Shown piece after piece: positions 1-46,633 of a DNA stretch of 47,281 nt. Below the pieces are notes generated by a model. The model was not told the DNA's origin, did no database searches, and saw only the letters and a list, made by a program, of their open reading frames with translations. How positions within the stretch are numbered: the first letter of the stretch is position 1; every line of letters starts with the position of its first letter. A program made the position numbers and the translations under genes. The DNA lies in assembly GCA_938018185.1 (NCBI GenBank), contig CALIIW010000053.1, positions 1 to 47,281 of the forward strand. Reading direction: 5' to 3'. Origin of the DNA: an uncultured Saprospiraceae bacterium. Its GTDB lineage: Bacteria > Bacteroidota > Bacteroidia > Chitinophagales > Saprospiraceae.

Positions 1-1400
1 CTTGGACAAGCTACCTATACTGATTCCATCTCTGTTGATGATCCTTGTATCGGAGCTTCTATTATTACCAGAACTTGGTTCTTGAGTGATGACTGTGGAA
101 ATGAAACTACACATATTCAAACCATTACTTTAGAAGATATTGTCGCGCCGACTTTTGATCTACCAGAAGACATTACTATACAATGTACTGATGATGCTTT
201 GGATTTGGATCTTGTGGGCGATGCAGAAAATGAAGATGATAATTGCGATCATTCTCTTGGGCAAGCTACTTACGAAGATGTTGTCTCTGCTGATGATCCT
301 TGTATTGGGGCTTCTATTATTACTAGAACTTGGTCACTTGGTGATGACTGTGGCAATGAAACTGTTCTTGTGCAAACCATCACACTTATTGATACCGTTC
401 CACCTATTTTTGATGTGCCTGCTGATATCACTATTGAATGTACCCAAGATCCTTTAGACCTAGATCTTGTTGGTGATGCACTTAATGAGTTTGACAATTG
501 CGACCACTCGCTTGGGCAAGCTACTTATACTGATGTGGTTTCTGCGGATGACCCTTGTGTTGGTGCTTCAGTTATTACCAGAACTTGGTTCTTAAGTGAT
601 GATTGTGGCAATGAAACTGTTCACGTACAAACGATAACCTTAGAAGACATTGTCGCGCCTACTTTTGATGCACCTGAAGATATTACAATAGATTGTACAC
701 AAGACCCATTTGACTTAACAATAGTTGGGGATGCACTTAATGAATTTGACAATTGTGATTCTTCTCTTGGGCAAGCTACTTATACCGATGTAGCTATTGC
801 CGATGATCCATGTATCGGTGCAAGTGTTATCACAAGAACTTGGTCACTAGACGATAATTGCGGAAATGTAACTGAATTTATTCAAACAATAACATTACAG
901 GATACCCAAGCGCCAAGTTTTGTTGCTCCAGAAGATGTAAGCATCGATTGTGCAGAAGATTATACTGACTTAACAATTACTGGAGATGCAACCGGCCTTG
1001 TTGATAATTGTGATACAACTGTTATTATTGCACTTCATTCTGACCAGATCGATGCCAATGATCCTTGTGCCATTACAATTACCAGAACATGGGTGGTAGA
1101 AGACAACTGTGGCAATTCTGATTCAAAGATTCAAACCATCACTTTAATTGACGATGCTGCTCCTGTTTTTAACACGATAGTAGAAGACTTGACCTTAAAT
1201 TGTGAAGAAATTCCAGAAGCACCTGAAATGGAAACAGAAGATAATTGTAGCGATGTTACTTTACAATTTGATGAAATTATTGAAGATGGTATTTGTGAAA
1301 ATATTTATACAATAATAAGAACTTGGACAGCTACAGATGAATGTGGAAACTCTAATGTACTTACCCAAAGTATTGATATGAAAGATTGCGATCCGCCGTT
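1..1400 (+). repeat. HYR-like 255-bp tandem repeats in the adhesin gene
   Basis: Units begin at 1, 256, 511, 766 and 1021, spaced exactly 255 bp (85 residues); a shorter diverged unit begins at 1261. Each of the first four opens with LGQATY, then DDPC, ITRTW, D(D/N)CGN, IQTITL, AP.F..PEDI, C and DNCD. The TW...D.CGN.....QTI...D..AP pattern is that of HYR/Ig-like repeats of Bacteroidota surface proteins. There are four cysteines per unit. The array continues to the left edge, so more copies may lie outside. Confidence 0.85.
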
Positions 1401-4400
1401 AGAAATCTCATTAGATACAGATGATTCTATTTGCGAGGAAGCTTTTGTTAGCCTTACTTCTATCCTTGGTGACGGGTTCGACAATCCGTATTACCAATGG
1501 CAGTATAGTTCTGATAAAATAACTTGGATTAATATTCCTAATGCAAACAGTCCAATTTTGGAATTTAATGCGGACATTAATGATGAAGGATGGTATAGAC
1601 TTGTTATTGGAAGTGATGCGAGCACAATTGAAAATACGGATTGTAATGTAATTTCAGATGAACTTTATTTAGATGTTAGACCACATTCACCATTAGTAGA
1701 ACAAGATATCTCTATCTGTCTTGGAGCATCTTACGAAATAAACGGAAATTCTTATACTACCCCTGGAAATTATGTAGACACCTTGGTGGCAGATAATGGT
1801 TGTGACAGCATCGTTTTGACAACTGTTGTAGTAGAACCAATTTTGCAATCTGATCAAAGTTTTAATATCTGTGAAGGTGACATAATTACCGTTGGTGATT
1901 CGAATTATACGGAGGAAGGAACTTATTCTGACATTCTAGTTACAGCTGATGGTTGTGATAGTTTGGTTATTACAGAAATTATATTCAAGCCACCTTATAA
2001 TACTGATCTCCCATTCACAATTTGTGAGGGAGCTAGCATAACATATGAAGGCGTTGAATATGACCAGGCTGGTAACTATATAGTAAACTTAGTTGCCTCA
2101 GATGGTTGTGACAGTATTATTCATATTGACTTAGCTGTTGAACCTTTGATCCTATTTGACCAATCATTTGTCGTATGCCCTGGCACTGAAATTACTGTTG
2201 GAAATATAATCTATGATCAAGCAGGAACTTACAATGACACATTAGTTACTCCTGACGGCTGCGATAGTTTAGTCATTACTCAAATTGCTCTTATTCCTTC
2301 TGTTTTCACAAATATAAATGAATCTATTTGTATTGGGGGTTCAACATTGATTAACGGAAATATCTATGACGACGCAGGAATTTATTACGACAGTTTATTA
2401 ACAGCAGATGGTTGTGATTCTATTTTAATCATTGAAATTAATTTAGAAGATCAGATATTAACCAACCAAACAGAATCATTATGTCCTGGTGGTAGTATCA
2501 TGATCAATGGGACTGTCTATACGGATGCAGGTATAATTTTCGACACACTATCAACGGTAGATGGTTGCGATTCCATTGTGATTACTGATCTAATTTTAAC
2601 TCCGCTTATTACCACTGAAATTAATGAATCTATATGTGTTGGTGGTCAAATCCAAATTGGAAACAATACTTATGATCAAGCTGGCCAGTACATAGACTCT
2701 CTAGTTACTGCTCAAGGTTGTGATAGTATTGTCTACATTGATATCTTAATGGAACCACTTATTATTACCAATCAAGATCTTTACACTTGCCCTGGTAGTT
2801 TTGTTACTATTAATGGCAATGTCTATGATCAAGAAGGGACTTATTATGATACGCTTACAACTGCTGACGGTTGTGATTCTGTTATGGTCTCTGAATTAAT
2901 ATTCACTCCACTTATTACCACTGAAATTAATGAATCAATTTGTGTGGGTGGTCAAATATTAATTGGTGGAAATGTTTACGATCAAGAAGGTCAATATACT
3001 GACTCTTTAGTTACTGCTCAAGGTTGTGATAGTATTGTTTACATCGACATCCTAATGGAACCTCTTATTATTACGAATCAAGATCTTTACACTTGTCCTG
3101 GTAGTTTTGTTACTGTCAATGGCAATATCTATGATCAAGAAGGGACTTATTATGATACGCTTACAACTGCTGACGGTTGTGATTCTGTTATGGTTTCTGA
3201 ATTAATATTCACTCCGCTTATTACCACTGAAATCAATGAATCAATTTGCGTTGGAGGTCAAATATTAATCGGTGGAAATGTTTACAATCAAGAAGGTCAA
3301 TATACTGACTCTTTAGTTACTGCTCAAGGTTGTGATAGTATTGTTTACATTGATATCCAAATGGATCCTCTTATCATTACTAATCAAACCTTGACAACTT
3401 GTGTTGGCGGATCTGTTACTGTCAATGGAAATATATACGATCAAGAAGGGACATACTACGATACTTTAACCACTACCAATGGTTGTGATTCAGTTATAGT
3501 ATCTACTCTCAACTTTGATGATATTATCTCAACCCAAATTCAAGAATCAATTTGTATCGGTGGAGAAATAATTATTGGTGGAAACGTCTATGATCAGGAA
3601 GGTTCTTTCATTGACTCTCTTATCACTTCTCAAGGCTGTGATAGTTTGGTATTTATCGAAATCGAATTCGATCCGGAAATTATAACACCTCAAACACTTA
3701 CTACTTGTGTCGGTGGTTCTGTTTCCGTTAACGGAAATATCTATGATCAAGAAGGGACTTATTATGACACCTTAACAACTTCACTTGGTTGTGATTCTAT
3801 AATTATTACAACTTTGAACTTTGACGATGTCATCTCTACTTATATTGAAGAATCTGTCTGTATCGGTGGAGAAATAATTATTGGTGGAAACGTCTATGAC
3901 CAAGAAGGTTCTTTCGTTGACTCTCTTATCACTTCTCAAGGCTGTGATAGTTTGGTATTTATTGAAATCGAATTTGACCCGGAAATTATCACACCTCAAA
4001 CACTTACTACCTGTGTCGGTGGTTCTGTTTCTTTTAACGGAAATGTCTATGATCAAGAAGGGACTTATTATGATACCTTAACAACTTCACTTGGTTGTGA
4101 TTCTATAATCATTACAACGCTGAATTTTGACGATGTCATCTCTACTTATATTGAAGAATCTGTCTGCATAGGTGGAGAAATAATTATTGGTGGAAATGTC
4201 TATGATCAAGAAGGTTCTTTTGTTGACTCTCTTCTTACTTCTCAAGGTTGTGATAGTTTGGTATTTATTGAAATCGAATTCGATCCTGAAATTATGGTTG
4301 AGCAAGAATTTAGTTTATGTATTGGTGGATCTATTACAATTAATGGAAATACTTATGAGCAAGCCGGTACATACTATGACACATTGACTACATCTTTGGG

Positions 4401-6420
4401 ATGTGACTCCATTGTTCAAAGTGTCATTGAATTTGATGACTCCATTGAAACAGAACTTGAGTTTGAAATTTGCGCAGGAGGAACAATAGAAGTTGAAGGA
4501 ATGTCTTATACCATACCAGGTATTTATTACGATACATTACTTACTTCAGAAGGTTGTGATTCTGTATTAATAATAGAACTGACAAATACAACAGCAATAA
4601 CTGTTGACATGGATTTGAGTTTATGTGAAGGAGATTCAATTCTTATTTCTGGAAACTGGGAAATAGAAGAAGGTGTTTATGCTGACACATTATCAAATAG
4701 TGATGGATGCGACAGTATAAATGTTTACAACTTAACATTTATAGAAAAGTACGAAGATTACTTCTTTATCACAATGTGCGACGGAGACTCCGTAACAATT
4801 GGCGAGGAGGTTTTCTATGATGATGGAAACTATCAGATTGATCTAGTATCAACAAATGAATGTGATAGTATTATCTATTTAGAAATAATAACCTTTGAAT
4901 TTGTCAGAGATACCATTGAATATACTATTTGTGAAGGAGATAGTGTAGATATAAATGGACAGATTATAACAAGTCCAATCGAAATTGAAGAAATTATTTT
5001 AAATGAATTTGGCTGTGACACAACAATCATTCATCAAGTTTATACTAATCCTTCTTACATAGAATTTGACACAATAAATCTTTGCGAAGGAGACGTAATC
5101 ACAATAGGCAACCAAACTATTACTGAGGAGGGTACTTATCTAGAAGATTACAATACCGTAGAAGGTTGCGATAGTCTTATTTATACAACTATAATTTATG
5201 GCAATATAGTTTCAGTAGATGAATTTTATACCCTATGCTTAGGAGATTCCGTTTTGGTCAATGGCGAATATGTCTATGATACAGAATCTATAGAATGGTC
5301 AGTGATAGGAGATGGCAATTGTGATACTTTGTTCCAAGCAATAGTTGTTGCTTATGGCACAAATGAATATTATGAAAATTATTCTTTTTGCGAAGGAGAT
5401 TCTGTTATGATCAATGGCAACTACTATTATAATGCGCAATTTTTCACAGAAGAATACTCAGATGTAAACGGATGTGATAGTATCATTAATTATGACATTT
5501 CTGTAATCCCAGAAAGTTATAGTGATCAACTCTATACTATATGCGAAGGAGATAGTATATTAATTTTGGGTGAATATATTTCAGAACCTCAAATTTTACA
5601 TGATACTACTGTCAACTATTTGGGTTGTGATTCTATTATTACAATTGAAGTTCTTCTAGAACCTAAGGTTGAAATTTTAGGAAACTTTTATGAAATATGC
5701 GAAGGAGATTCAATTGAAATTTCGGTAACAGGCGCTACAAATATTATGTGGACGCCTCACCCAGATCTATCTTGTTTAGATTGCCCTAGCCAATTAGTTG
5801 CTCCATCTGTTACAACCACGTATACTGCTACTGCAGAAAGTTGTCTTGGCGAAATGGTTACAGCACAAGTTACCGTTACGGTTAGACCAAATCTGTACAT
5901 CGATATAGAACCTAGTATTGAACTTTTAAAAGGAGACTCTGCTATATTAGACGCTTGGACCAATGCACCTGAGTCAATTATGTACTGGGAGGATTGGGAA
6001 GGAAATATATTATGTAGTGAATGTTCTTCCGTAGTTATAAAACCTGAGTTATCACTTCCATATACGGTCCATGTTATTGACCAATTTGGTTGTGAAGCAT
6101 CAGAACAAATTCAAGTAAGACTTAGAACTAAATGTGAAGAAGGTAAGATAGATCTTCCAAATATGATTACTCCAAATGATGATGGTGTAAATGATGATCT
6201 TGAAATTAGATATTCTGGAGTAGAGAAGATTGCCCTATTGCGTATCTATAATCGTTGGGGAGAACTAGTCTTCGAGACCAGAAGTGTTGATGATGAAAGA
6301 TGGGATGGTACATTCAGGGGGAAACAATTAAACCCCGGAGTCTATGTGTATTATCTTGATGTTATATGTTTAAACGGACTCCATTTTGAGAAAAAAGGTA
6401 ACGTAACCATTATCAGGTAA
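1..6420 (+). CDS. Giant T9SS-exported adhesin, 5'-truncated by the window
   Basis: The reading frame is open from base 1, so the first in-frame TTG at 82 is not the real start; at least 2139 residues are present. Order: five and a half HYR-like repeats of 85 residues (1-1400), an Ig/PKD-like segment (about 1400-1680), 26 repeats of 51 residues (1687-5664), two further Ig-like segments, and a C-terminal gliding-motility (type B, CHU_C) sorting domain from about 6151, with the signature MITPNDDGVND followed by YNRWGELVF and an N-P-G-V-Y-V-Y-Y strand. This domain family directs export through the type IX secretion system and surface attachment. Each repeat keeps paired cysteines, which suggests a disulfide-stapled extracellular rod. 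A PorP/SprF-like gene follows 297 bp downstream, as in sprB-sprF type loci. The role as adhesin or gliding/attachment fibre is inference; the sorting domain is clear. Confidence 0.93.
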   Translation, partial: LGQATYTDSISVDDPCIGASIITRTWFLSDDCGNETTHIQTITLEDIVAPTFDLPEDITIQCTDDALDLDLVGDAENEDDNCDHSLGQATYEDVVSADDPCIGASIITRTWSLGDDCGNETVLVQTITLIDTVPPIFDVPADITIECTQDPLDLDLVGDALNEFDNCDHSLGQATYTDVVSADDPCVGASVITRTWFLSDDCGNETVHVQTITLEDIVAPTFDAPEDITIDCTQDPFDLTIVGDALNEFDNCDSSLGQATYTDVAIADDPCIGASVITRTWSLDDNCGNVTEFIQTITLQDTQAPSFVAPEDVSIDCAEDYTDLTITGDATGLVDNCDTTVIIALHSDQIDANDPCAITITRTWVVEDNCGNSDSKIQTITLIDDAAPVFNTIVEDLTLNCEEIPEAPEMETEDNCSDVTLQFDEIIEDGICENIYTIIRTWTATDECGNSNVLTQSIDMKDCDPPLEISLDTDDSICEEAFVSLTSILGDGFDNPYYQWQYSSDKITWINIPNANSPILEFNADINDEGWYRLVIGSDASTIENTDCNVISDELYLDVRPHSPLVEQDISICLGASYEINGNSYTTPGNYVDTLVADNGCDSIVLTTVVVEPILQSDQSFNICEGDIITVGDSNYTEEGTYSDILVTADGCDSLVITEIIFKPPYNTDLPFTICEGASITYEGVEYDQAGNYIVNLVASDGCDSIIHIDLAVEPLILFDQSFVVCPGTEITVGNIIYDQAGTYNDTLVTPDGCDSLVITQIALIPSVFTNINESICIGGSTLINGNIYDDAGIYYDSLLTADGCDSILIIEINLEDQILTNQTESLCPGGSIMINGTVYTDAGIIFDTLSTVDGCDSIVITDLILTPLITTEINESICVGGQIQIGNNTYDQAGQYIDSLVTAQGCDSIVYIDILMEPLIITNQDLYTCPGSFVTINGNVYDQEGTYYDTLTTADGCDSVMVSELIFTPLITTEINESICVGGQILIGGNVYDQEGQYTDSLVTAQGCDSIVYIDILMEPLIITNQDLYTCPGSFVTVNGNIYDQEGTYYDTLTTADGCDSVMVSELIFTPLITTEINESICVGGQILIGGNVYNQEGQYTDSLVTAQGCDSIVYIDIQMDPLIITNQTLTTCVGGSVTVNGNIYDQEGTYYDTLTTTNGCDSVIVSTLNFDDIISTQIQESICIGGEIIIGGNVYDQEGSFIDSLITSQGCDSLVFIEIEFDPEIITPQTLTTCVGGSVSVNGNIYDQEGTYYDTLTTSLGCDSIIITTLNFDDVISTYIEESVCIGGEIIIGGNVYDQEGSFVDSLITSQGCDSLVFIEIEFDPEIITPQTLTTCVGGSVSFNGNVYDQEGTYYDTLTTSLGCDSIIITTLNFDDVISTYIEESVCIGGEIIIGGNVYDQEGSFVDSLLTSQGCDSLVFIEIEFDPEIMVEQEFSLCIGGSITINGNTYEQAGTYYDTLTTSLGCDSIVQSVIEFDDSIETELEFEICAGGTIEVEGMSYTIPGIYYDTLLTSEGCDSVLIIELTNTTAITVDMDLSLCEGDSILISGNWEIEEGVYADTLSNSDGCDSINVYNLTFIEKYEDYFFITMCDGDSVTIGEEVFYDDGNYQIDLVSTNECDSIIYLEIITFEFVRDTIEYTICEGDSVDINGQIITSPIEIEEIILNEFGCDTTIIHQVYTNPSYIEFDTINLCEGDVITIGNQTITEEGTYLEDYNTVEGCDSLIYTTIIYGNIVSVDEFYTLCLGDSVLVNGEYVYDTESIEWSVIGDGNCDTLFQAIVVAYGTNEYYENYSFCEGDSVMINGNYYYNAQFFTEEYSDVNGCDSIINYDISVIPESYSDQLYTICEGDSILILGEYISEPQILHDTTVNYLGCDSIITIEVLLEPKVEILGNFYEICEGDSIEISVTGATNIMWTPHPDLSCLDCPSQLVAPSVTTTYTATAESCLGEMVTAQVTVTVRPNLYIDIEPSIELLKGDSAILDAWTNAPESIMYWEDWEGNILCSECSSVVIKPELSLPYTVHVIDQFGCEASEQIQVRLRTKCEEGKIDLPNMITPNDDGVNDDLEIRYSGVEKIALLRIYNRWGELVFETRSVDDERWDGTFRGKQLNPGVYVYYLDVICLNGLHFEKKGNVTIIR
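1687..5664 (+). repeat. 26 tandem 153-bp (51-residue) cysteine-pair repeats
   Basis: Twenty-six units of exactly 153 bp run without any insertion or deletion. Consensus features per unit: Cys at position 11 in an (I/L)C.GG or CEGDS context, an NGN.Y segment near position 20, G.Y.D(T/S)L near 28-33, and GCDS with Cys at position 39. I checked each translated unit and both cysteines are kept in all 26. Units 7-17 alternate between two subtypes, giving a 306-bp higher-order period in the DNA (for example the ITTEINES segment at 2605, 2911 and 3217). Later units (18-26) are more diverged and drift toward CEGDS. Similar GCDS repeats are familiar in Bacteroidota T9SS cargo, but no function is established that I know of. 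Confidence 0.92.
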
Positions 6421-6717: not shown

Positions 6718-7794
6718 ATGTTTAAAATATCATCTGCTAAAGGACAGCTTTTTTTATTTCTTCTTATTTTGTTTGTAGGCTTGAGCGACTCAAGGTTGGC
6801 TGCACAAGATATTCACCTTTCTCATATCCATGCTTCACCTACTTATTTAAATCCTGGAATGAACGGTATGTTCAATGATGGATTTTTACGTTTAATAGCT
6901 AATTCTAGAAGTCAATGGGATGCAGTAACTAATGGTTATCAAACGGCCATGATATCCGCAGATTACAAGGCTATGGACAATGGCAATTCTGTTGTCAGTG
7001 CTGGTATACAGTTATATCATGATGTAGCTGGAGATTTAGATTTCACTACTCAACAAGTAGGTTTATCCCTATCCGTAATTAAAGTGCTAGACAGAAAACA
7101 AAGAAACTTAGTTTCAGCTGGTTTTCAAGCATCGCATGTCAGTAATAGAGTTGACTTTAATAAGGCATATACCTTTGATGCTGACCCTTTAGTTTACGAT
7201 TATGGTGTAACTAACAAGATTGGTTATTTTGACTTTTCTTTTGGAGGGACATATTTTCACAAACTTAGAACCTATGGAAACTTTCATCTAGGACTTAGTT
7301 TGGCTCATATCAATATGCCTGACGTTTCTTTTTCTAGCAGATTAGAAGATCAACCAGGTACTTACCAAGTAGACCTAAAAACACTTTATAGAAAATTCAT
7401 CTTTCACGGAGGGGCTGACCTTAGACTTTCTAGATACATGTCAGTTTTGCCTTCTTTTATTTTTATGGATCAAGGACCTCATCAAGAAATTTCCTTAGGT
7501 TCTTTTCTTAAGGTTTGCAAGGATCCATCTTTCAAGAAATCACCATATGCATTCTATATAGGAGCTTGGTTTAGATGGTATGCCGAACATGATATTGTAG
7601 GTACAGATGCTTTAATTGTATCCTTAAGAACAGATATTAAAAGGACTAAAATTGCCTTTTCATTTGACTTAAATCTATCTACATTAAGTGTTGCTTCAAA
7701 AGGACTAGGTGGTCCGGAGCTTTCAATTATTCAGGTAATTCATAGTGACAAGAGAAGATTCAGAAGAGGAAAAGTGAAATGTCCTGCAATGTAA
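6718..7794 (+). CDS. PorP/SprF family T9SS outer-membrane protein
   Basis: A 358-residue protein with an N-terminal signal peptide (hydrophobic FLFLLILFVGL, likely cleavage after AAQ near residue 30). The mature start, DIHLSHIHASPTYLNPGMNG, is the typical opening of the PorP/SprF family: Q/D-x-x-x-S-x-x-x-x-x-P-x-x-x-NP followed by a G. The rest is a run of amphipathic strands expected to form an outer-membrane beta-barrel. In Flavobacterium johnsoniae, SprF is needed for surface delivery of the adhesin SprB and is encoded next to it. Here the gene likewise follows a giant type B cargo gene, so it is probably the dedicated partner of that adhesin. The 297-bp gap before it shows no obvious terminator. 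The start codon is supported by the signal peptide. Confidence 0.88.
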   Translation: MFKISSAKGQLFLFLLILFVGLSDSRLAAQDIHLSHIHASPTYLNPGMNGMFNDGFLRLIANSRSQWDAVTNGYQTAMISADYKAMDNGNSVVSAGIQLYHDVAGDLDFTTQQVGLSLSVIKVLDRKQRNLVSAGFQASHVSNRVDFNKAYTFDADPLVYDYGVTNKIGYFDFSFGGTYFHKLRTYGNFHLGLSLAHINMPDVSFSSRLEDQPGTYQVDLKTLYRKFIFHGGADLRLSRYMSVLPSFIFMDQGPHQEISLGSFLKVCKDPSFKKSPYAFYIGAWFRWYAEHDIVGTDALIVSLRTDIKRTKIAFSFDLNLSTLSVASKGLGGPELSIIQVIHSDKRRFRRGKVKCPAM

Positions 7795-26203: not shown

Positions 26204-26226
26204 ATACTATAAGCCAATTGTCTTTT

Positions 26227-27969
26227 ATGGATTTAAAATCACCCATATTCTTTCTTACTATTTTTCTGTTTGTAATTAACAGTATTTATTCACAAATAAA
26301 TCCGCCCAATTTTCTTTGTGTTAGAAACGATACTCTTTTTTGGGAAGCTCCAATTAATGATTGCGGTCCCTTCATTAGTTATACGATTTATTTTTCAAGC
26401 ACAGAGGATGGCCCCTACACTGTTTTAGACAACACCGCTTTTTTTACAGCGACAGAATATGAGCACCCTAATCCAGGTGGTAACTTATTCTACTATTATT
26501 TAGTCAGCAATTATGATTGTCCAGGAGAAGTGCAACTTACTTCTGACACCTTAAATACAAGGCCCCCTGAAATTGGACCAATTGTAAGAGCAAGCGTTGA
26601 AGGCGGAGGAGTCTTGCTTGAATGGGAAACCAGTCCTTCTCCTGAAGTGAACGCATACATTATTTATCGAGTTTTTGTTACCGGAACATTCCCAATTGAT
26701 ACTGTTTTCAATCAAACACAATATATTGACCCTAATGCAGATCAAAATAGTCGCATTGAATCTTATTTTGTGGTCGCGTTAGATCCATGTGAAAACACAA
26801 GTATATTTGGAGACCCGCATTCAACTATTTTTCTTGATTTTGACTTAAGTGATTGCGAAAGACAGATTACCTTAAATTGGAACCTATATGATGGTTGGGC
26901 ATCTGGAATTGACAGGCAAGAAGTTTGGGCTTCTATAGATGGTGCTACTCCAGAATTAATTGCAAGTATAGATGCTTCTGAAAACACTTATACCTTGAAT
27001 CAAATAGTTGATGGTGCTGATTATGAAATTTTTATACAAGCTCACCAACAAAACAATTCTGCTGTTTTCTCCCGCTCAAATACTGTTTCTTTCAATGCAA
27101 ATGTAACAGAAGCTATCACGGAATTAAGTATTGTTTCTGTGCGTACCAATTTGAGTAATGAAGTAGAACTCAATTGGAATTGGAATCCCAATGCTGAATT
27201 GACACAATATGACATTGTGCAAACAGACGCTGCGGGCAACTCAAATTCTGACATACAAAATCCTGTACCAACACCTTTATCAGCAAGCGAATTTTACAAT
27301 GATTCTGACATTAACGCTACCGAAGAAATATTTACATATCAAATTCAAACTGTTGATGATTGTGGAGATATGGCTAGCTCTAACGAGGCAAAAAATATAG
27401 TGCTGACTTGTCGTCAAATAGATAATTCCGCAAATGAAATTAACTGGTCTATTTTTGAAATGGATAGAGCTGTCTTAAACTCTTATAAACTTTACCGCAT
27501 TAATAATGGTTCAGAAGAGTTGCTGGCGGAAATTACGGATGGTACTACTAACTTCCTAGATGACTATGAAGCAATAGCTGTAGGAAATGAAGATTTCTGT
27601 TATTATCTTGTTGCAGATGCAAGATTGGAATTACTTGATGGGAATCTTATTGATGCATTTATACAATCCAACAGATGTTGTGTTGAAAGAGCAGCTTATG
27701 CTATTGTTCCAAATGCATTTGTTCCATCTGGGAAAAATTCCATTTTCAAACCATTACTTTTCAATAAAGCATCTTTACAAAGTTATCAATTGAATATCTG
27801 GTCCAGATGGGGAGAACTAATATTCAGTTCTAGTGATCCAGAAATGGGGTGGAATGGTCAAAAGCAAGGACGTGATATGCCACAAGGAGCCTATGCTTTT
27901 TTGATTAGTCTAAAGATGAATGATGGGACAGAAGTCCAGGAAAAGGGATCTGTTTTGTTATTGAAATGA
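26227..27969 (+). CDS. Fibronectin-type T9SS cargo protein, type B sorting domain
   Basis: A 580-residue secreted protein. The ATG at 26227 is chosen over an upstream TTG (26218) because it gives a clean signal peptide (MDLKSPIFFLTIFLFVINS, cleavage after IYS or IYSQ). Several fibronectin type III-like domains follow (about 25-480; for example GGVLLEWETSPSPEVNAYII and VELNWNWNPNAELTQYDIV). The C-terminal gliding-motility sorting domain begins near 490: AIVPNAFVPSGKNSIF, then IWSRWGELIF, MGWNGQ and PQGAYAF. Only one PorP/SprF-like gene is in the window, far away, so its partner is elsewhere or shared. The stop overlaps by 12 bp the end of the convergent gene. Confidence 0.88.
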   Translation: MDLKSPIFFLTIFLFVINSIYSQINPPNFLCVRNDTLFWEAPINDCGPFISYTIYFSSTEDGPYTVLDNTAFFTATEYEHPNPGGNLFYYYLVSNYDCPGEVQLTSDTLNTRPPEIGPIVRASVEGGGVLLEWETSPSPEVNAYIIYRVFVTGTFPIDTVFNQTQYIDPNADQNSRIESYFVVALDPCENTSIFGDPHSTIFLDFDLSDCERQITLNWNLYDGWASGIDRQEVWASIDGATPELIASIDASENTYTLNQIVDGADYEIFIQAHQQNNSAVFSRSNTVSFNANVTEAITELSIVSVRTNLSNEVELNWNWNPNAELTQYDIVQTDAAGNSNSDIQNPVPTPLSASEFYNDSDINATEEIFTYQIQTVDDCGDMASSNEAKNIVLTCRQIDNSANEINWSIFEMDRAVLNSYKLYRINNGSEELLAEITDGTTNFLDDYEAIAVGNEDFCYYLVADARLELLDGNLIDAFIQSNRCCVERAAYAIVPNAFVPSGKNSIFKPLLFNKASLQSYQLNIWSRWGELIFSSSDPEMGWNGQKQGRDMPQGAYAFLISLKMNDGTEVQEKGSVLLLK

Positions 27970-38128: not shown

Positions 38129-41100
38129 CTAATTCTTAATTATCCGTTTCACTACAGTTCCTAAATCCGTTTTTATTTCTATGAAATAAATTCCTGCAGG
38201 TAGTTCTGTCAACTCTATTTTCGAAAGCTTTCCTTCTTTGATCAACGAATAAACCTCTTGGCCTATAACTGTATAAACTGAAATTGATGACCACTTGATT
38301 TGTAGTCCTTTATAATCAACATTAATAACATCAGATGTCGGATTTGGATAAACCTTTATATCAGAACCTATTTGCCCAGCACTTTCCGAAGACGTTATTA
38401 ATTGTCCTTCGGCAACTGCTGTACAACCATTGGCATCTGTAACAGTAAGCTGATAAATCTCTCCCGTAATTGCGTATTCATTAACCGCAGATGTTTCTCC
38501 TGTGCTCCATAAATAATTATAAGGTGTGCTTCCTCCAACTGCGTTTGCTTCAAGCATGCCATCCATATTTGTAATAACATTTCCGACAAGCTCATCAGGC
38601 GATGACAATATTATGGTTTGAAGTAAAAAACAGCCAAGGCTATCCGTTATGGTAACTTCATAAGTTCCAGCCGGAATCATACTCAATGTTGAGCCTGTAG
38701 AATCAGAATAAGGTTCTGACCAAGTATAGAAAAATAGCTCTGTTCCATCATCTACTGTAAGTTGAATTGCCCCATCATTAAAACCAAAACATGATGGTAT
38801 CGTTGCATCAACAGAAATGGAAGGGGGAAATTCATTTACAACATTAATCTCAACTGTTGAAGTACAGCCATTAGTTTCATCTGTAACAATGCCAATATAA
38901 GTACCTTGCTCAGTTACAATATTGTCAAGTAGCAAGTCTCCATCAAAACCGTACCACTCGACAAGATATATGCTGTCGTCTGGTAAAACAATAGAAACAC
39001 CACATTCTAAGGTCAATGAACTTGGAAAAAATACATCCGGGTTATTTTGATCTTCTGTGTAACTAAAAGACTGCTCTACAGTACATCCTGTTTCTACATC
39101 TAATATTGTTACAGTTGATACTAAATCTGTTCCTGAATAGTTAGGTCCAGTTTGCAAAACAAATCCACTGCCGTCAAGCCACTCTATCTCATAATTATTT
39201 AAGGAATCATAAACAACTTCAAATTCAAAGGTGTCAAGCCTACAAGTGATGACTGGACTTGAAGTAGAAGGTATGATCTCATAAGTAAGATCTTCTACCG
39301 CGGTTACAAGAACTGTTGCGGAATCGCTACAACCAGTATCCTCGTTTGTAAGAGTCAAAGTATATTCTCCTATTTCAAATACCGTTGGATTGAGTGTGTT
39401 CTCATTGAGGATCATACCTCCGTTAATTGTTGTCCAAAGTATGCTAACATTGTTTCCATTCAAAATAGATCCTGAAGCGTCTAATTCTAAACCTATAACA
39501 CCAAAACATGAAATGGTGCCCGGTGTTTCAATTACCGCCTGAGGAGCATCTCCACTTTGACTTTCTGATATAGTAATCAAAGCTTCTGAAGCACAAATGG
39601 TCGTAGCATCAGTAAATATAAATAGGTAATCTCCTACTCCAGTATTCGGGTCATTCGCCAAAACAGTTAAAGTAGAAGTAAGACTTCCATAAGACTCAGG
39701 AATTGAAATCAAACTTGGCGGTGTCGTACTGTAATCTACTTTCCACCAGGTTTGAGATATTGGCACAAGGGAAGGATCTGAGGAAGATCCAATTAAAGTC
39801 AATTCTGAAAGGCCACAATCAAATGCCGCATAATCGGCTTCTATTATTGCAGGTATTGATGCTTGTAAATTTAGTTCGATTGTTTCAGTGGCTAGACAAC
39901 AATTTGCTGCATTTGATATTTCAATTGTATACACTCCTGGGATACAAATCCCCTCGGACGAAGTTTGAACCTGTGTACTGACATTGAATAGCTCCGTCTC
40001 TGACTTTACCAAATTGCCTACAGTATCATACCAAGCAAATGTAAATTCATGATTGTACAATGCTGGATGAACGTCATTCAAAGTTATAATAGCCGGGGTA
40101 ACAATTGTATGGCAATCTGGGTCTAGAAGGTTTGGGCATAATATCCCTGGGCTTGACTCTGCTATCCATCCATTTGAATTGTCTCCTCCATCTACAAGGT
40201 GAACTATAATTTCACAAACATCCTCACAACAAGCGTCGATCATTAAGAAATGAGTTGCACCTGCAATTGCATCTACTGTTATTAAATCAAAGCTTTGATC
40301 TACACAACTGATACAATCCAAGTTCATGAGTTCAGGCCCATCAGAAATGTTGCACTCCCCTCTTAAAAGACCTGCTTTCATTCCACTACAAGAAAGACTT
40401 GGTGACAAACAGTTTACTATTTCAATATTTAGATGGAGCCTTCCACTTTTTGTTGCTGTGAATGCAATCCATAGATTATTATTAATGCTGGTAAAACCAG
40501 GACAAATGATAGCTAATTCATTTTCGGTATCTGCTGTAAACCCACAAGTAGTTGTTTGGAATCCATCGATTGTACAAATACTAACTGGTATTGCGTCAAT
40601 ACAATTATCACTTGCAACTACTGTCCCGCAATCGTCGCATAAGTTTGTATAGCTATCCGTTTCTGAACAAAAAATTTCACATTCCCCGATGCTTATATAA
40701 TTAGAAATTACAGAACAATTATTTGCATCTGTTATGGTAACTGAGTATGCCAAATTATTTGATGGATTCAATACTATTGAGGCTGTACTATTGTCTGACC
40801 ACAAATAAGTGTAAGCTGCTGTTCCACCTGTTGGAGCAACTTCTAAATTGTTATCTCCATTCAAAAATATCTCTGCTTCAAGAACTTCCGGTTCTAATAT
40901 TATAGTAGTCGCTTCCGCTGAACATGCGTTACTGTCTGTGACCGTGATGCCGTAGCTTCCTGACGATGCCATATTCGCTGTTGGTGCTACACCATCCGGT
41001 GTCGACCATAAATAAGTAAACGGCTCTTGCCCATTTGATACTTGCAGTTCAATATTGCCGTCCATGGCTCCAAAACAAGAAATATTAGTGGCGCTAATTT

Positions 41101-44100
41101 CGATTTCAGGATCAGCAATTAGGGTAATAATTAAAACATGTTCTATAAAACAATTGACAATTATATCTTCGACAAGAGCTGTATAAACGCCAGCTTCCGT
41201 AAGAACTAAATTTTGAATCTCATTCCCATCCTCATCTGTCCAGCTTACATTATAGTTTGGCGTAGGTGGTAAGGTATAACTTGTGTTATTGCAATTTAAA
41301 GAAACGTTTGTTGGAAAATCAATGCTGATGTTGCAAGCGAAAAAAGTATTTGTACAGGTGCAGCCATTTGCATCTGTAATGCTAACTGTATAATTTGAAT
41401 TGACAGCATAGTTAACAAGGAGCTCTCCCATTTCTCCATTAGACCAGAGGAATGTATATGGTGCTGTACCTCCATTTCCTGAAGCTAAAAGACCTTGACT
41501 CATTTCATCAATCGTGCAAGTTAGTTCTGCAGGTTCATTTATGAATATAGATTCTGTTGTCGTACAATTATTTGCATCAGTCACTGTGAGATCATATTGA
41601 CCTGCAGTCAAATTATTCAGTGTGCTTTCGGAGGCGGTACCATTCGGAGTCATCCAAGAAAAAACAAAAGGAGCTTGTCCATTCTGAACAGAAACCATGG
41701 CTGTTCCATCTGTTGATTGATAGCAAGATAAATTGGTAGCAGTTACTATTATTTCAAGGCTCTCTGCAGCAACAACCAACAGACTGGCATTGGCAGAACA
41801 TCCATTTGATGGATCTACTACCTCAGCATAATAAATTCCTGTTTGATCCGTACTTCCTAAAATAATATTGCCACTAGCGTCTCGCCAAGTTGTAATGTAA
41901 TTATTGTTTTGTGGCAAGTCAACTAACAATAGATTGCAATCCAATTGCAAAGTAGTTGGAAAATCAATCACGGGTTCTTCAAAATTTGCAATATAATTTA
42001 TTGCCTGTGTACTTGAACAAGCCGAATTTGAATCCGTGACAGATACTGAACTAAGATTTAGATTCGAAGCATAATAAGTTGGACCTGTAGCAAGAACATT
42101 TCCATCTGCGTCCAGCCACTCGATTAGGGCATTTGAATTAGTCGTTTGCACAGAAAATTGAATGTCAACTTGAGGATTATTACAATCAATTGTAATGCTA
42201 GAAGGATCCGGTGTGATTTCAAAATCTAAATCTGTAGCAGATTGAAAAACCTCTATTGAGGCAGAAGCAGAACAGGAATTATCTAGATTGATAATGGTTA
42301 ATGTATATATTCCCGCTTGACTGACAGTAGGTGTAAAAGTTGCTTCGTTAAGTATAGGCTGGTTGGAATCTGAAGTCCACAACAGGGTGTAATTATTAGT
42401 TGGTACAATTTCTTCTTGTGGAAATCCACCTGCTTGAATATCCAATGTAATGTTGCAATCTATAATAGCTCTATTGACCACAGAAGCAGAAGCGTCTAAA
42501 ATTATACTGGCACTTTGGTCGCAATCCAGAATTCCAGCTGCGCCTATATTGACAATTGGAGAAATGGTGTCTACGGCAATACAAACCATAGTTTCTGAAA
42601 CGCAAAAATCATTCATCCCAATGTAGGTGTATAGGTACACTCCCCCGCCAGTAAATTCATCATCTAATTCTACTACTAAATTTGAAGTCTGTGACCCAGA
42701 AGATGCTGGTATAAATTCTCGAGTTGCAGGGAAATTACTGAAGTCAACTTTCCACCAATTTTGAAACAGAATATCATAGGCTGGATCATCAGGCGTTCCA
42801 TTTAAGCTTAGCGATTGTTGATTGCAATCCAATTGATCTCCATTTAAAAATGAAAATTCCGCCCCCGGTATATCCGCTTCACCTAATTCAAATTCCAAAG
42901 TCAACACTTCGCAGCTTCCTGGAGAAAAGCATTCTACTTTATAGGTACCTTCTAAACAGAAATAGACTCCTCCCCCTGCAGGATTAGTGCCTGTAAGAGA
43001 TGAAAAGATTGTGTTTCCGTTTGGAATTCCTGGCCCCTCCCACATTATATTTCCATTTGGATCATACCATCTGAATTCGTGACTTTCTGGTAAAGGTGTC
43101 CCATCAATAGATGCCAATTGCACCACAGCTCCAGAGTTTGGTGAACAGCAATTTGGATTTAAAATATCTGGACAAAGAATACCACTAACGAATTCTAAAC
43201 GATAAGGTGATTCTGGTAAACCGTCAATAACATTGATCTTAAACTCACAGGCGTCTCCGCAACAACCGTCTATCATTAAGTAATGAGGCTGGCCTGGAAT
43301 TAGGTCTGATGTAGTAAGTGCGAAAGTACTTGTAGCACAATTAACGCAGCTTAAAGTTTCGTAACCATTTGGTTCAAATACATTTCCGGGATTAGAACAT
43401 ACTGCCCTTACGATTGCAGCTTGCATGCCATTGCAGGCATTGTTTGTACTAAGGCAATTAATAATTTCAACTTCTAGTGTTATACTATTTGTAGAAGTAG
43501 GCACGTCAAAACCGATCCACATATTGTTTTGAGCAATCGTTCCAAGGCCACAAAAATCCATTAAATCATTTGGCCCATCTGCTGTCAATCCGCATAAGGT
43601 AGATGTAAAGCCATCTAACTCCATTAAAGTTCCTATGTAAGCATCCGCACAATTGTCGGCCAAAATTTGATTGTCACATCTAGAGCATAGATTTATAATA
43701 GTATTGGCTACAGAACAAAACACCTCACATCCTGCTCTACTTGCAACTGCTGTACATCCATTGGCATCCGTCACAGTCACGGTATAATGATGGGTAGGAT
43801 CAAAATTAATCGAAGGGTTTGTGGATCCTATATTCCACAAATAAGTATATGGTGGAGTACCTCCTTGAATAATAGTTTCTAATTGATTTCCTGTTTCGCT
43901 TAATTCAACCAGCAGTTGTTCCGGCTGAGAAATCGTAATCATTTGTTCACTGGTACAATTATTTGCATCCGTTAAAGTAAGTGAATATGTTCCTACTGCT
44001 AAGGCAGTCAAGTCAACTGGCATCATACTTCCAAATGGTGTATCCCATTCATATGTAAATGGCTCTAATCCGGCTTCTGTAGCTATTGAAATAGCGCCAT

Positions 44101-46633
44101 TCATTTCTCCAAAACACAAGATATTTTGAGCGGTCAAAGTCAGTGTTGGATCTTCTTGTACGTTCACTTCAAGACTAGCAGTTGTTTCACAAAAATTTAT
44201 TTCATCTATAATTGTAGCATGGTAAGTTCCAGCTTGATTGATTGGTCCATCTACGGTATTGTTATTTTCATCTTCCCAGGTAACGGTAAAGTCTGGATGA
44301 TCCGGAAAATTTTCTTGAGGGTTTTGACAATTGATCGTGATGTTTTCTATAAATTCAACATCCGGGCTTAGAGTGTTTTGTATAATAGTAAAATCTTCAT
44401 TGCTACTACTACAAGTATTATCTAAATTATTTATTGTGACGGATGCAAGATTTTGTAATAAGCCTTCATAAGTCGTTCCAGTCGAAATTATTTGACCTGC
44501 CCCATCATACCAAATCACTTCATAATTTGGAGCCTTGTTTACAGTTGCGACAATAGTAAATAATTCATTTTCATTTTGGCAATTAATTGTAATGCTGTTA
44601 GGGTCCGGATCTATCGTATAATCTACTTCAGAAGAATTGCTAAATACTTCTACATCTTGAGCGCTTACACAACCATTATCATTGTTTGTGATCGTAATAG
44701 TGTAAATTCCTGCTTGGCTTACTATAGGAATTAGTGTCGATGAATTTTCTATTGGAAAATTATCCGCGGAGGTCCACAAGATACTAGAGGGGCCAATTAG
44801 AAAAGTACTAGCTGCATTTAATTGAAGGCTAGGATTGTTAATGCAATCAAGAATTCCTGGGGAGTCAATATTTATATTAGATGTAGTAAGAGTATCAGCT
44901 AGCATTTCAATCATAGCTTCAGAAGGACAGATACTAGAAATTTCATACATATTGTATAGATAAATTCCAGGTCCTGTAAGGGGGTCATCAAGAGAAATTG
45001 ATAAACTTTCATTGACCTCGTTTATAATTTGGTTTTGTACCGGTGGCAAAGTACTATCGTCAACTTTGAACCATTGGTGTTTAGTTGGAATGACTGTAGG
45101 ATCTGTTGGACTTGCTAGCAAAAGTTCATCTGGTTCATTGCATGAAAGAAAAATATCAGAGGCAAGAATATTCACCTCCTGAGTCTCTGAAAAGCTTACA
45201 TTGAAATTTCTATCCGCTTTAGAACAATCATTCAGATTTTTTATCTCAACGGAATATATTCCTTCACTACAAAAATAAGATTGCCCTGTATTTGGATTCA
45301 CTCCTGACAAGGAGCTTTGACTAGTTCCTACATTTGCTGGACCTTCATATATAACTTGAGCAAAAGGATCTCGCCAAGTAAAAAAGTAATCAGGATTTGG
45401 ATCTTCAAAAGGATCAATTTTCGCAGTAGCTAACGCATTTGATATTTTTGATCCGCAATTAGGCATTGCGATTGATTCGCAGAATACACCAGAGACAGCC
45501 TCTACTTCCAAACTTGATTCTTCAAAGCCATCGATCACATGTATAGTATATTCACAAGCATCTCCACAGCAGCCATCAATCATAATGTAATGTGGGACTC
45601 CTGCAATAGCATCTACTGTGATTAGGTCAAAAGTTTGATTAACGCAGTTAGCACAATCTAAAGTTTCGTATTCAAATCCTGAAAAAACATTTCCAGGATT
45701 CGAACAGAGGGCTCTGGCAACAGCAGCTTGTAAACCATTGCAACTTGGGTGTGGAGAAAAGCAATTTATTATTTCAATATTTAGGTGTAGTCTTCCATTT
45801 TTTAGCGGTTCAAATCCTACCCAAGTATTATTGTGAACAATAGTTCCAGGTCCACAAAACTGTGGCAAGCCACCTGGCCCATCGGGAGTAGAATAACAGT
45901 TTATCGTATTAAATCCATCCAGATCGCATAGAGTTGCAATTTCTGCATCTGCACAGTTATCTGTGGCAACTACAAAGCCCGCATCTGAACAAACATTTAC
46001 ACACGAATCTAATATTCCACAATACACTTGACAAGGAGAAATACAATTACCAGCTGAAAGAGATTCTTCAATAGCTATCTCATCTAACCATGAAATTGAT
46101 TTTCTTATACAATTCCCTTCAGAATCTCTTGCTGAGCCACTTTCAATTGTTATTTTTAAAGAATCTGCAATTGAACTATCAAAAGGAAGTTTTATCTTTT
46201 TAAAAGCGTTAATTTCATCGTAAGTCTCCCATCTAAAATTTCCTGCATCAGCACCTTGAGCATAAAAATTTCCATAAATTTCAAAAAATATAAACCCTGA
46301 GGTATTAGATTTTTCAAATTTAGTCTTAACAAAAAATGTCAATAGTTTATTTTCTCCAACAGGACCTTCCAATTTAAAACCCGCTGTTGCAGTATTAGTA
46401 CATTCTTGCAGATCGCTGGTAGGACCTGGTATTATTTTTAAAGAATAATTCCCTTGAACTGCATCAGTATCTTTAACAAATCTTTCGAAATTTGAATCTT
46501 GGTTGGTTTCCCAATGTAAGGGTTTTTCAAAATTTTGGATTGGTTCCCAGTCTTCAAAACTTGGATTTAAGATTTGGGCCTTGATAGTTATTTGAAGTAA
46601 TGCGAATAGAACTAAAAGTAAAGTTTTTCTCAT
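38129..46633 (-). CDS. 2834-residue T9SS-exported modular adhesin
   Basis: The signal peptide is MRKTLLLVLFALLQITIKA then Q. A jelly-roll-like N-terminal domain covers about 20-190. Three super-modules follow, each with a cysteine-rich domain (NC.DA...GF...C... IEI(I/V)NC.S...C.G...A...R, then MIDGCCGDAC or a variant), PKD/Ig-like domains, and SprB-type repeats (SCFGxxDG...PFTYxW...GxYxxTVTDANxC). The second super-module is longer, with an extra Ig plus SprB block. The C-terminal type A sorting domain is VYPNPTSDVINVDY... GIYFIEIKT...VKRIIKN. SprB repeats occur in the mobile gliding adhesin of F. johnsoniae, so a surface adhesin or gliding role is likely but unproven. There is no PorP/SprF gene beside it, in line with its type A rather than type B signal. 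Confidence 0.92.
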   Translation of the reverse strand: MRKTLLLVLFALLQITIKAQILNPSFEDWEPIQNFEKPLHWETNQDSNFERFVKDTDAVQGNYSLKIIPGPTSDLQECTNTATAGFKLEGPVGENKLLTFFVKTKFEKSNTSGFIFFEIYGNFYAQGADAGNFRWETYDEINAFKKIKLPFDSSIADSLKITIESGSARDSEGNCIRKSISWLDEIAIEESLSAGNCISPCQVYCGILDSCVNVCSDAGFVVATDNCADAEIATLCDLDGFNTINCYSTPDGPGGLPQFCGPGTIVHNNTWVGFEPLKNGRLHLNIEIINCFSPHPSCNGLQAAVARALCSNPGNVFSGFEYETLDCANCVNQTFDLITVDAIAGVPHYIMIDGCCGDACEYTIHVIDGFEESSLEVEAVSGVFCESIAMPNCGSKISNALATAKIDPFEDPNPDYFFTWRDPFAQVIYEGPANVGTSQSSLSGVNPNTGQSYFCSEGIYSVEIKNLNDCSKADRNFNVSFSETQEVNILASDIFLSCNEPDELLLASPTDPTVIPTKHQWFKVDDSTLPPVQNQIINEVNESLSISLDDPLTGPGIYLYNMYEISSICPSEAMIEMLADTLTTSNINIDSPGILDCINNPSLQLNAASTFLIGPSSILWTSADNFPIENSSTLIPIVSQAGIYTITITNNDNGCVSAQDVEVFSNSSEVDYTIDPDPNSITINCQNENELFTIVATVNKAPNYEVIWYDGAGQIISTGTTYEGLLQNLASVTINNLDNTCSSSNEDFTIIQNTLSPDVEFIENITINCQNPQENFPDHPDFTVTWEDENNNTVDGPINQAGTYHATIIDEINFCETTASLEVNVQEDPTLTLTAQNILCFGEMNGAISIATEAGLEPFTYEWDTPFGSMMPVDLTALAVGTYSLTLTDANNCTSEQMITISQPEQLLVELSETGNQLETIIQGGTPPYTYLWNIGSTNPSINFDPTHHYTVTVTDANGCTAVASRAGCEVFCSVANTIINLCSRCDNQILADNCADAYIGTLMELDGFTSTLCGLTADGPNDLMDFCGLGTIAQNNMWIGFDVPTSTNSITLEVEIINCLSTNNACNGMQAAIVRAVCSNPGNVFEPNGYETLSCVNCATSTFALTTSDLIPGQPHYLMIDGCCGDACEFKINVIDGLPESPYRLEFVSGILCPDILNPNCCSPNSGAVVQLASIDGTPLPESHEFRWYDPNGNIMWEGPGIPNGNTIFSSLTGTNPAGGGVYFCLEGTYKVECFSPGSCEVLTLEFELGEADIPGAEFSFLNGDQLDCNQQSLSLNGTPDDPAYDILFQNWWKVDFSNFPATREFIPASSGSQTSNLVVELDDEFTGGGVYLYTYIGMNDFCVSETMVCIAVDTISPIVNIGAAGILDCDQSASIILDASASVVNRAIIDCNITLDIQAGGFPQEEIVPTNNYTLLWTSDSNQPILNEATFTPTVSQAGIYTLTIINLDNSCSASASIEVFQSATDLDFEITPDPSSITIDCNNPQVDIQFSVQTTNSNALIEWLDADGNVLATGPTYYASNLNLSSVSVTDSNSACSSTQAINYIANFEEPVIDFPTTLQLDCNLLLVDLPQNNNYITTWRDASGNIILGSTDQTGIYYAEVVDPSNGCSANASLLVVAAESLEIIVTATNLSCYQSTDGTAMVSVQNGQAPFVFSWMTPNGTASESTLNNLTAGQYDLTVTDANNCTTTESIFINEPAELTCTIDEMSQGLLASGNGGTAPYTFLWSNGEMGELLVNYAVNSNYTVSITDANGCTCTNTFFACNISIDFPTNVSLNCNNTSYTLPPTPNYNVSWTDEDGNEIQNLVLTEAGVYTALVEDIIVNCFIEHVLIITLIADPEIEISATNISCFGAMDGNIELQVSNGQEPFTYLWSTPDGVAPTANMASSGSYGITVTDSNACSAEATTIILEPEVLEAEIFLNGDNNLEVAPTGGTAAYTYLWSDNSTASIVLNPSNNLAYSVTITDANNCSVISNYISIGECEIFCSETDSYTNLCDDCGTVVASDNCIDAIPVSICTIDGFQTTTCGFTADTENELAIICPGFTSINNNLWIAFTATKSGRLHLNIEIVNCLSPSLSCSGMKAGLLRGECNISDGPELMNLDCISCVDQSFDLITVDAIAGATHFLMIDACCEDVCEIIVHLVDGGDNSNGWIAESSPGILCPNLLDPDCHTIVTPAIITLNDVHPALYNHEFTFAWYDTVGNLVKSETELFNVSTQVQTSSEGICIPGVYTIEISNAANCCLATETIELNLQASIPAIIEADYAAFDCGLSELTLIGSSSDPSLVPISQTWWKVDYSTTPPSLISIPESYGSLTSTLTVLANDPNTGVGDYLFIFTDATTICASEALITISESQSGDAPQAVIETPGTISCFGVIGLELDASGSILNGNNVSILWTTINGGMILNENTLNPTVFEIGEYTLTLTNEDTGCSDSATVLVTAVEDLTYEIIPSTSSPVITCRLDTFEFEVVYDSLNNYEIEWLDGSGFVLQTGPNYSGTDLVSTVTILDVETGCTVEQSFSYTEDQNNPDVFFPSSLTLECGVSIVLPDDSIYLVEWYGFDGDLLLDNIVTEQGTYIGIVTDETNGCTSTVEINVVNEFPPSISVDATIPSCFGFNDGAIQLTVDDGTELFFYTWSEPYSDSTGSTLSMIPAGTYEVTITDSLGCFLLQTIILSSPDELVGNVITNMDGMLEANAVGGSTPYNYLWSTGETSAVNEYAITGEIYQLTVTDANGCTAVAEGQLITSSESAGQIGSDIKVYPNPTSDVINVDYKGLQIKWSSISVYTVIGQEVYSLIKEGKLSKIELTELPAGIYFIEIKTDLGTVVKRIIKN
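38390..44150 (-). repeat. Four paired SprB-type repeat blocks in the giant gene
   Basis: Approximate blocks: 44150-43735, 41760-41340, 41115-40690 and 38825-38390. Each has a first unit with a C(F/Y)...(D/N)G.....V..G..PF.Y.W pattern and LTVTDANNC, then a shorter unit (GGT.PYTYLW, VTDANGC). The third block is the extra one in super-module 2. Confidence 0.75.
40180..46060 (-). repeat. Three copies of a roughly 175-residue cysteine-rich domain
   Basis: Copies at about 46055-45520, 43740-43200 and 40695-40180. Shared landmarks in order: a CxxxC start, DNC.DA, DGF....C, N.(T/L/M)W(V/I)(G/A)F, NC.S....C.G(L/M)(Q/K)A, and H(Y/F).MID.CC.D.CE. The SprB-containing segments separate them, so the copies mark the start of each super-module. 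Confidence 0.8.

Follow-up and report, generated by a model that had tools for sequence, protein, structure and literature searches.

We found that the two conserved cysteines in a long array of 51-residue units, part of a giant surface protein from an uncultured Saprospiraceae bacterium, are partnered between neighboring units. The gene lies at the start of the window, by which we mean the whole 47,281-nucleotide stretch of DNA that was analyzed. The joint loss of cysteines across homologous arrays and the direct coupling of alignment columns both show that the cysteine at position 11 of one unit, C11(n), and the cysteine at position 39 of the following unit, C39(n+1), are evolutionary partners. 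We infer that this partnership takes the form of a disulfide made in the cell. The most probable overall reading, which we put at about 0.86, is that the beads of the array are stapled head to tail, from C11(n) to C39(n+1), and would thereby form a covalently stitched stalk.

The array at positions 1687–5664 consists of 26 consecutive units of 153 bp, or 51 residues, each, and these coordinates, the count and the phase agree exactly with those given by an earlier sequence-only reading of the same DNA. That reading had also placed cysteines at unit positions 11 and 39 of every copy, 52 in phase, and this is what we observed: both are present in 26 of 26 units, and the array is otherwise free of cysteine. 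The invariant columns of the unit alignment (26/26) are C11, G13, C39 and D40. From position 5665 onward a further Ig-like domain follows, in which the first cysteine falls at unit position 12 and the 51-residue period is not kept. The proposed constraint on length and cysteines is supported. In the homologous arrays the modal spacing was 51 in 59 of the 73 runs of at least 10 units; spacing was perfectly uniform in 18 of the 73, the window array among them. Strict unit length is typical of the whole family and not peculiar to the window array. In units 7–17, mean nucleotide identity was 0.84 at a lag of two units versus 0.53 at a lag of one, a 306-bp period that points to duplication of unit pairs.

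Table 1. Features of the array protein and of the gene that follows it
Feature	Positions	Strand	Basis
Frame of the giant, predicted T9SS cargo protein, 2139 aa visible	1–6420	+	5'-open ORF
HYR_4C run, four Cys per domain	1–1395	+	PF23237; limits by eye
Ig-like domain 0; C11-like Cys at nt 1432, C39-like Cys at nt 1642	1396–1686	+	Type and limits by eye
26 units, each 51 aa long with its own C11 and C39; predicted mini-Ig fold	1687–5664	+	Translation, alignment, AlphaFold2
Two-unit (306-bp) higher-order repeat, units 7–17	2605–4287	+	Lag identities
Ig-like domain 27; C11-like Cys at nt 5698, CxxC at nt 5773/5782, C39-like Cys at nt 5842	5665–5889	+	Limits by eye
Ig-like domain 28; no C11-like Cys, CxxC at nt 6013/6022, C39-like Cys at nt 6091	5890–6126	+	Limits by eye
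Type B T9SS C-terminal sorting domain (CHU_C), residues 2050–2138	6148–6414	+	PF13585, TIGR04131
PorP/SprF-family outer membrane protein gene, next after the cargo gene	6718–7794	+	TIGR03519

The 5' end of the cargo gene is missing because the contig begins inside it (Table 1). PF23237 matched the visible protein at 77.8 bits (cut-off 27) in five stretches, the best of them at residues 309–381, and the sorting domain scored 64.6 bits with PF13585 (cut-off 27) and 48.3 bits with TIGR04131 (cut-off 35). Domain 28 is the last bead ahead of the sorting domain, a place where head-to-tail stapling predicts no C11. The product of the following gene scored 136.8 bits with TIGR03519 (cut-off 90.55), has a single cysteine in its C-tail (KVKCPAM) and is the likely carrier and anchor of the cargo protein. 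The same genome contains one match to SprA (TIGR04189, 2428.8 bits against a cut-off of 200). By its sorting domain, the PorP/SprF gene and the genomic SprA, the array protein is classed as a T9SS type B surface protein.

When one of two bonded cysteines is lost the other is freed, and losses of bonded cysteines are thus expected in pairs. We scored both cysteines in each unit of homologous arrays from 79 loci, out of 380 relatives, and from 36 regions, with co-loss counts that leave out loci L001–L042 and L158–L185. HMM matches of fewer than 24 columns were removed from the discovery set and from both holdouts; under the wider rule applied to the pooled set, matches were removed if they covered fewer than 14 columns or stopped short of about column 36. 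Units containing X were removed, except in the shuffle and the per-ORF analysis. The discovery set includes duplicates (L082 and L138 are one locus, L110 and L120 near copies), and a de-duplicated recount removed 18 ORFs that shared 25 residues with another, leaving 149 ORFs with 1993 units. From the holdouts we also took out any ORF that had 40 residues in common with an earlier set, 43 in the first (L190, L194, L195 and L200) and 6 in the second (L244), along with 13 duplicate ORFs of the first holdout. The pooled set under the wider rule comprised 167 ORFs, 189 runs of at least three units and 2156 units.

The discovery set showed 33 joint and 8 single losses for C11(n) and C39(n+1) (phi 0.89), and 1 joint and 126 single losses for C11 and C39 of the same unit. 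The pooled set gave the same picture for C11(n) and C39(n+1), with both present in 1886 cases, one lost in 10 and both lost in 41 (phi 0.89), as did the de-duplicated recount (39 joint and 9 single losses in 11 ORFs, phi 0.89). When losses were shuffled within runs 1000 times, the joint losses of this pair averaged 10.0 and reached 19 at most, compared with the 41 observed. Among the 17 ORFs with at least two lost cysteines, the pairing of C11(n) with C39(n+1) was the best in 11 and same-unit pairing in none, while 5 were tied or favored no pairing. Runs of at least four units held 122 lost cysteines, of which 82 lay in C11(n)/C39(n+1) pairs, 16 were the C11 of a last unit and 15 the C39 of a first unit; 113 of the 122 are thereby accounted for, which leaves 9 exceptions. 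The joint losses are confined to 12 ORFs, some with duplicated units, and so represent fewer independent events; many of the loci come from metagenome assemblies.

Two holdout sets were scored in the same way. In the first (37 ORFs and 452 units, taken from additional genomes within the order), all six losses in runs of at least four units fell at the predicted free ends, three being first-unit C39 and three last-unit C11. No interior loss occurred in runs of that length, and this set is thus a test of array ends only; the count leaves aside a further nine losses, which come from runs of just one or two units and mostly concern other Ig-like domains. The second holdout (20 ORFs, 217 units) was composed of other proteins from genomes hosting loci with losses, genomes which, being picked for that reason, are not a random draw. 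Under the original rule it gave 8 joint and 16 single losses of C11(n) and C39(n+1) (phi 0.55). Because 11 of these 16 single losses were shifted cysteines of short units lying outside the searched range, the cysteine search rule was widened for all sets after the second-holdout data had been seen, and the widened rule gave 9 joint and 4 single losses (phi 0.82).

The ends of arrays offer a separate view of the pairing. Over all ORFs, C39 was missing from 15 of 170 first units and C11 from 6 of 157; at the other end, C11 was missing from 16 of 171 last units and C39 from 5 of 168. The cysteine lost at an array end is mostly the one without a partner. Head-to-tail stapling does not account for five of the six first-unit losses of C11, though three resemble other domain types. 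Where the first unit had C39, the preceding 120 residues held a cysteine in 127 of 128 cases, and where it did not, in 8 of 10; for last units, a cysteine within 115 residues downstream was present in 128 of 128 cases with C11 and in 7 of 9 without. These counts of flanking cysteines weakly favor staples that reach beyond the array.

We also searched the same ORFs iteratively with an Ig-like HMM seeded with domain 27, which yielded 560 domains in 147 runs of at least two. For the C11-like cysteine of one domain and the C39-like cysteine of the next, 3 joint and 10 single losses were counted (phi 0.42), compared with 2 joint and 75 single losses within the same domain and 1 joint and 66 single losses for the C39-like(n)/C11-like(n+1) pair. 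In 70 runs of at least three Ig-like domains of about 80 aa, last domains lacked the C11-like cysteine in 24 of 70 cases and the C39-like cysteine in 0 of 70. Among first domains, 2 of 70 were without the C11-like cysteine and 3 of 70 without the C39-like one; the corresponding figures for interior domains were 2 and 3 of 266. The concentration of C11-like absences in last domains is the end effect that head-to-tail stapling predicts.

The chain of staples in the window protein probably continues into the flanking domains. C39 of unit 1 would be bonded to the C11-like cysteine of domain 0. At the other end, C11 of unit 26 would be bonded to domain 27, whose own C11-like cysteine would bond the C39-like cysteine of domain 28; there, with no C11 available, the chain would end. 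Between nt 1432 and the stop codon there are 63 cysteines, which can be arranged in 31 pairs if the one at nt 1642 is left for the upstream domain. This assignment combines the staple rule with two CxxC pairs and one pair in the sorting domain, and the cysteine at nt 1387 lies outside it.

Mean-field direct coupling was computed for 1831 consecutive unit pairs from 171 ORFs, covering 4186 column pairs. The coupling of C11(n) with C39(n+1) ranked first of the 4186, with a z of 17.3, whereas C11 and C39 of the same unit reached z 0.9 (rank 393) and the two columns taken two units apart z 2.1 (rank 133). Further couplings at the same junction were 50(n)-37(n+1) (z 4.6) and 13(n)-39(n+1) (z 3.1). 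Two couplings between neighbors do not fit this junction, 29(n)-27(n+1) (z 4.2) and 39(n)-11(n+1) (z 3.6), and a control pair, 39(n)-11(n+2), reached z 4.9, which we attribute to arrays whose losses occur at regular intervals. Couplings between homologous columns (18-18, 23-23 and the like) were set aside as artefacts of relatedness.

The couplings within a unit outline its topology. Strands 1 and 5 pair in parallel (5-44, 6-45, 7-46, 9-48, 10-49), strands 4 and 5 in antiparallel fashion (33-41, 32-42, 30-44, 28-46, 27-47), and strands 2 and 3 form a hairpin (17-22, 18-23). The parallel register of strands 1 and 5 would keep a unit's own two cysteines some ten strand residues apart, at opposite ends of the bead, where they could form no bond with each other and would be placed for a bond across the junction. 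C11, at the end of strand 1, would occupy the pole that faces the next bead, and C39, in the turn ahead of strand 5, the pole that faces the previous one, such that C11 of bead n would bond C39 of bead n+1. Staples of this kind would be expected to stiffen the stalk, fix the orientation of the beads and prevent them from being pulled apart.

Structure prediction of consecutive units, as the earlier reading had suggested, was run on four of them with AlphaFold2. With 105 aligned rows, the model was all-beta with five strands per unit (pLDDT 94.3, pTM 0.63); a shallow run with 11 rows gave a pLDDT of 80.9 and a pTM of 0.39. We read the five-strand pattern, repeated in each unit of the model, as separate mini-Ig beads. 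The model supports a tandem all-beta structure, but "blade" and "solenoid", the terms of the earlier reading, are not the most fitting ones for separate beads. Single units superposed on Ig domains at about 2–3.4 Å over 46–51 residues, with Z scores of about 4–5 that lie under the level at which chance is excluded.

The sequence-only reading had proposed one disulfide inside each unit, between its own C11 and C39. Both cysteines do occur in every window unit, and the 28-residue span between them, found in 1510 of 1995 scored units, is feasible for a disulfide. The losses tell otherwise, with 1 joint and 121 single losses in the pooled set (1 and 112 after de-duplication), the same-unit coupling is low, and the strand register derived from coupling puts the two at opposite poles; co-loss and coupling pair C11(n) with C39(n+1) instead, and we regard a bond within the unit as very improbable. 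Little more can be said for a pairing across the linker between the cysteines that follow each other along the chain, C39(n) and C11(n+1), even though their spacing is the most constant of all (23 residues in 1719 of 1853 cases), their joint losses carry a weak signal (phi 0.17) and their coupling reaches z 3.6. This pairing was the best in 1 of the 17 ORFs with multiple losses (L067, which has a run of X in the gap). Its 11 joint losses stand against 89 single ones (81 after de-duplication), and with X-containing units included the 12 joint losses observed fall within the range of the shuffles (mean 9.8, maximum 17). L063 and L234, in which several staples in a row would have been lost, account for nine of these 12, and losses at array ends mostly go the opposite way, which leaves this arrangement with very little credence.

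Co-loss and coupling show partnership, not chemistry, and C11(n) and C39(n+1) might be partners without a disulfide, as a metal site at the junction or as a packing pair. In line with this, DsbB and VKOR were looked for and not found in the genome of the array, which is 92% complete. However, two cysteines by themselves rarely form a metal site, the sorting domain marks the protein as extracytoplasmic, and D40 was kept in 54 of the 59 units that had lost C39, which indicates that D40 does not depend on the cysteine as a shared metal ligand might; we consider partners of this kind improbable. Disulfides between neighboring stalks are hardly credible. They could be imagined because GhpA, the grappling hook protein of Aureispira sp. 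CCB-QB1 and the nearest solved structure, is described as a heptamer (PMC11205867, PMC13319060), but the loss pattern of C11(n) and C39(n+1) would then need chains offset by exactly one unit. Head-to-tail stapling within a single chain accordingly remains our preferred reading of the pattern in these sequences.

Among genomes sampled across the order, 236 of 298 contained the unit, as did 15 of 296 sampled across the phylum, the array's own genome being included in both. That genome carries it in at least 124 places, a lower bound since 150 of 451 candidates were scored, and the nearest locus by identity was L043, from a Saprospiraceae MAG (55%). Common as the unit is in the order, none of the Pfam or NCBIfam families listed for units 7–10 reached its cut-off, in keeping with the earlier reading, against which a well-characterised family covering the unit would have told; for the other 104 members of the four-unit alignment the results are counts and best E-values, and a few may pass Ig_7 or another model. 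HYR_4C (PF23237) was not among the seven Pfam families listed for units 7–10 at E ≤ 1. Among the 105 four-unit members, Ig_7 (PF19081) reached E ≤ 1 in 21 (best E 1.5e-6) and PKD_4 (PF18911) in 18 (best E 1.4e-4). The window units scored 16.8 bits with PKD_4, under its cut-off of 27, and Ig_7 was not listed for the window member.

Several other candidates were rejected. NuoB (NCBIfam) matched 27–37 of the 105 members with a best E of 2.7e-6, and the window member scored 11.6 bits against a cut-off of 142.7, which we attribute to chance. A match to 2csi (RIM binding protein 2; E 0.0023 over 36 residues) was likewise ascribed to chance, as it was lost with a deeper four-unit profile; no PDB chain matched that deeper profile at E ≤ 10. 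In a search for relatives on viral contigs, 39 stretches fitted a pattern and none was confirmed.

In Foldseek searches, GhpA was the best match of both AlphaFold2 models (ranks 1–3 for the shallow model; ranks 1–2 for the deep model, E 1.6e-6). Its structure was reportedly described by Lien et al. in 2024, and the PDB entries are 9flp, 9fls, 9flu, 9flv, 9flw, 9flx, 9fly and 9g8b. With a second aligner, GhpA occupied rows 1–7 for the deep model at Z 5.0–6.2, 15–21% identity and an rmsd of 11.3–12.5 Å, followed in row 8 by CD200R (Z 4.9), and an animal Ig domain came first for the shallow model (3rbg, Z 5.1); Z scores under 8 may reflect merely a common arrangement. The deep-model alignment covered about 200 of 204 residues over 330–340 residues of GhpA, which we read as four array beads laid against four longer GhpA beads, and the large rmsd indicates a bead-by-bead likeness and not one rigid match. 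At the sequence level, the sorting domain of GhpA matches that of the window protein (E 8e-6), and one Ig-like stretch of GhpA has "ICEG" and "GCNS" cysteines like those of domain 27, although the Ig-like stretches are singly non-significant (best 0.33). The GhpA beads would be about 83 residues long, compared with 51 in the array, and a profile of the 51-aa unit matched no chain at E ≤ 10 in a PDB library that contains GhpA. GhpA is also described as a T9SS substrate. We do not claim membership of the array protein in the GhpA family, and by analogy the two may possibly work in the same way.

We lean somewhat towards the view that stapling between beads is a general rule of Bacteroidota T9SS stalks, one that would take in the 51-aa units, the Ig-like domains of about 80 aa and hooks of the GhpA type. 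The staple would join the cysteine where strand 1 of domain n ends to the one in the last hairpin of domain n+1. If the rule holds, these appendages would be covalently stitched end to end. Ig_7, the CHU_C-associated Ig-like family, and PKD_4 occur in the same T9SS cargo setting as the array. A further likeness is to the gliding adhesin SprB, which has a type B CTD and SprF as its carrier (PMC12635249); the array protein also combines a type B CTD with a PorP/SprF partner. In that source SprF has a reported CxC motif, whereas the C-tail of the window's PorP/SprF-family protein has one cysteine. For the visible 2139 aa of the array protein, nine Pfam families were listed at E ≤ 1, and a SprB repeat model was not one of them.

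The giant adhesin of Mobiluncus mulieris resembles the array protein in that its stalk is very long, is built of tandem Ig-like domains and carries covalent cross-links. These are isopeptide, ester, disulfide and thioester bonds, described as intramolecular and lying within domains, and the interdomain linker is flexible (PMC10619420). The cross-links proposed for the array would instead lie between beads. In searches of open-licence PMC papers, the titles and opening lines of abstracts that were listed made no mention of disulfides joining the domains of tandem Ig-like adhesins in bacteria. The usual picture of a long bacterial adhesin is a string of beads that owes its strength to bonds inside each bead or to calcium. 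Disulfide stitching from bead to bead, if true, would be a different route to a stiff, pull-resistant stalk made of a single polypeptide, and it suggests a simple sequence test for other tandem stalks, in which C11(n) is paired with C39(n+1) and not with a cysteine inside its own domain.

Within the array of 51-residue mini-Ig units that forms part of the stalk, the truncated type B cargo protein of the type IX secretion system (T9SS), units 7-17 form a two-unit higher-order repeat. When units two apart were compared (units 7-18), synonymous codon differences outnumbered non-synonymous ones in 8 of the 10 comparisons.

Features of the window discussed here
Feature	Position (nt)	Strand	Details
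Higher-order repeat	2605-4287		two units, 306 bp
PorP/SprF neighbour	6718-7794		
Second T9SS cargo gene	26218-27969		CHU_C domain, 40.1 bits (cut-off 27)
ORF	38129-46633	minus	2834 aa

Among the homologous arrays, the putative staples, disulfides predicted to join C11 of one unit to C39 of the next, were missing at regular spacing in three (L107, L115 and L234). The loss fell at approximately every third junction between units in L107 and L115, and at every second junction in part of L234. Such regularly spaced losses are perhaps hinges built into the stalk. We also observed a shortened unit of ~41-43 residues that kept both cysteines at six loci: L137, L130 and L132, which are contigs C125, C56 and C126 of the genome that the window comes from, and L229, L231 and L232. 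Judged by eye, this form apparently lacks the hairpin of strands 2 and 3.

A further cysteine, at nt 1387, lies where the last HYR_4C domain ends, outside the assigned pairs. Neither DsbB nor VKOR was detected in the bacterium's own genome (92% complete), despite a surface protein rich in paired cysteines.

The C-terminal tail of the PorP/SprF neighbour contains only one cysteine, within KVKCPAM. PMC12635249 describes SprF as bonding to GldK through a CxC motif in its C-terminal tail; by analogy, the single-cysteine tail of the neighbour may serve as a link between the stalk and the moving track of the envelope.
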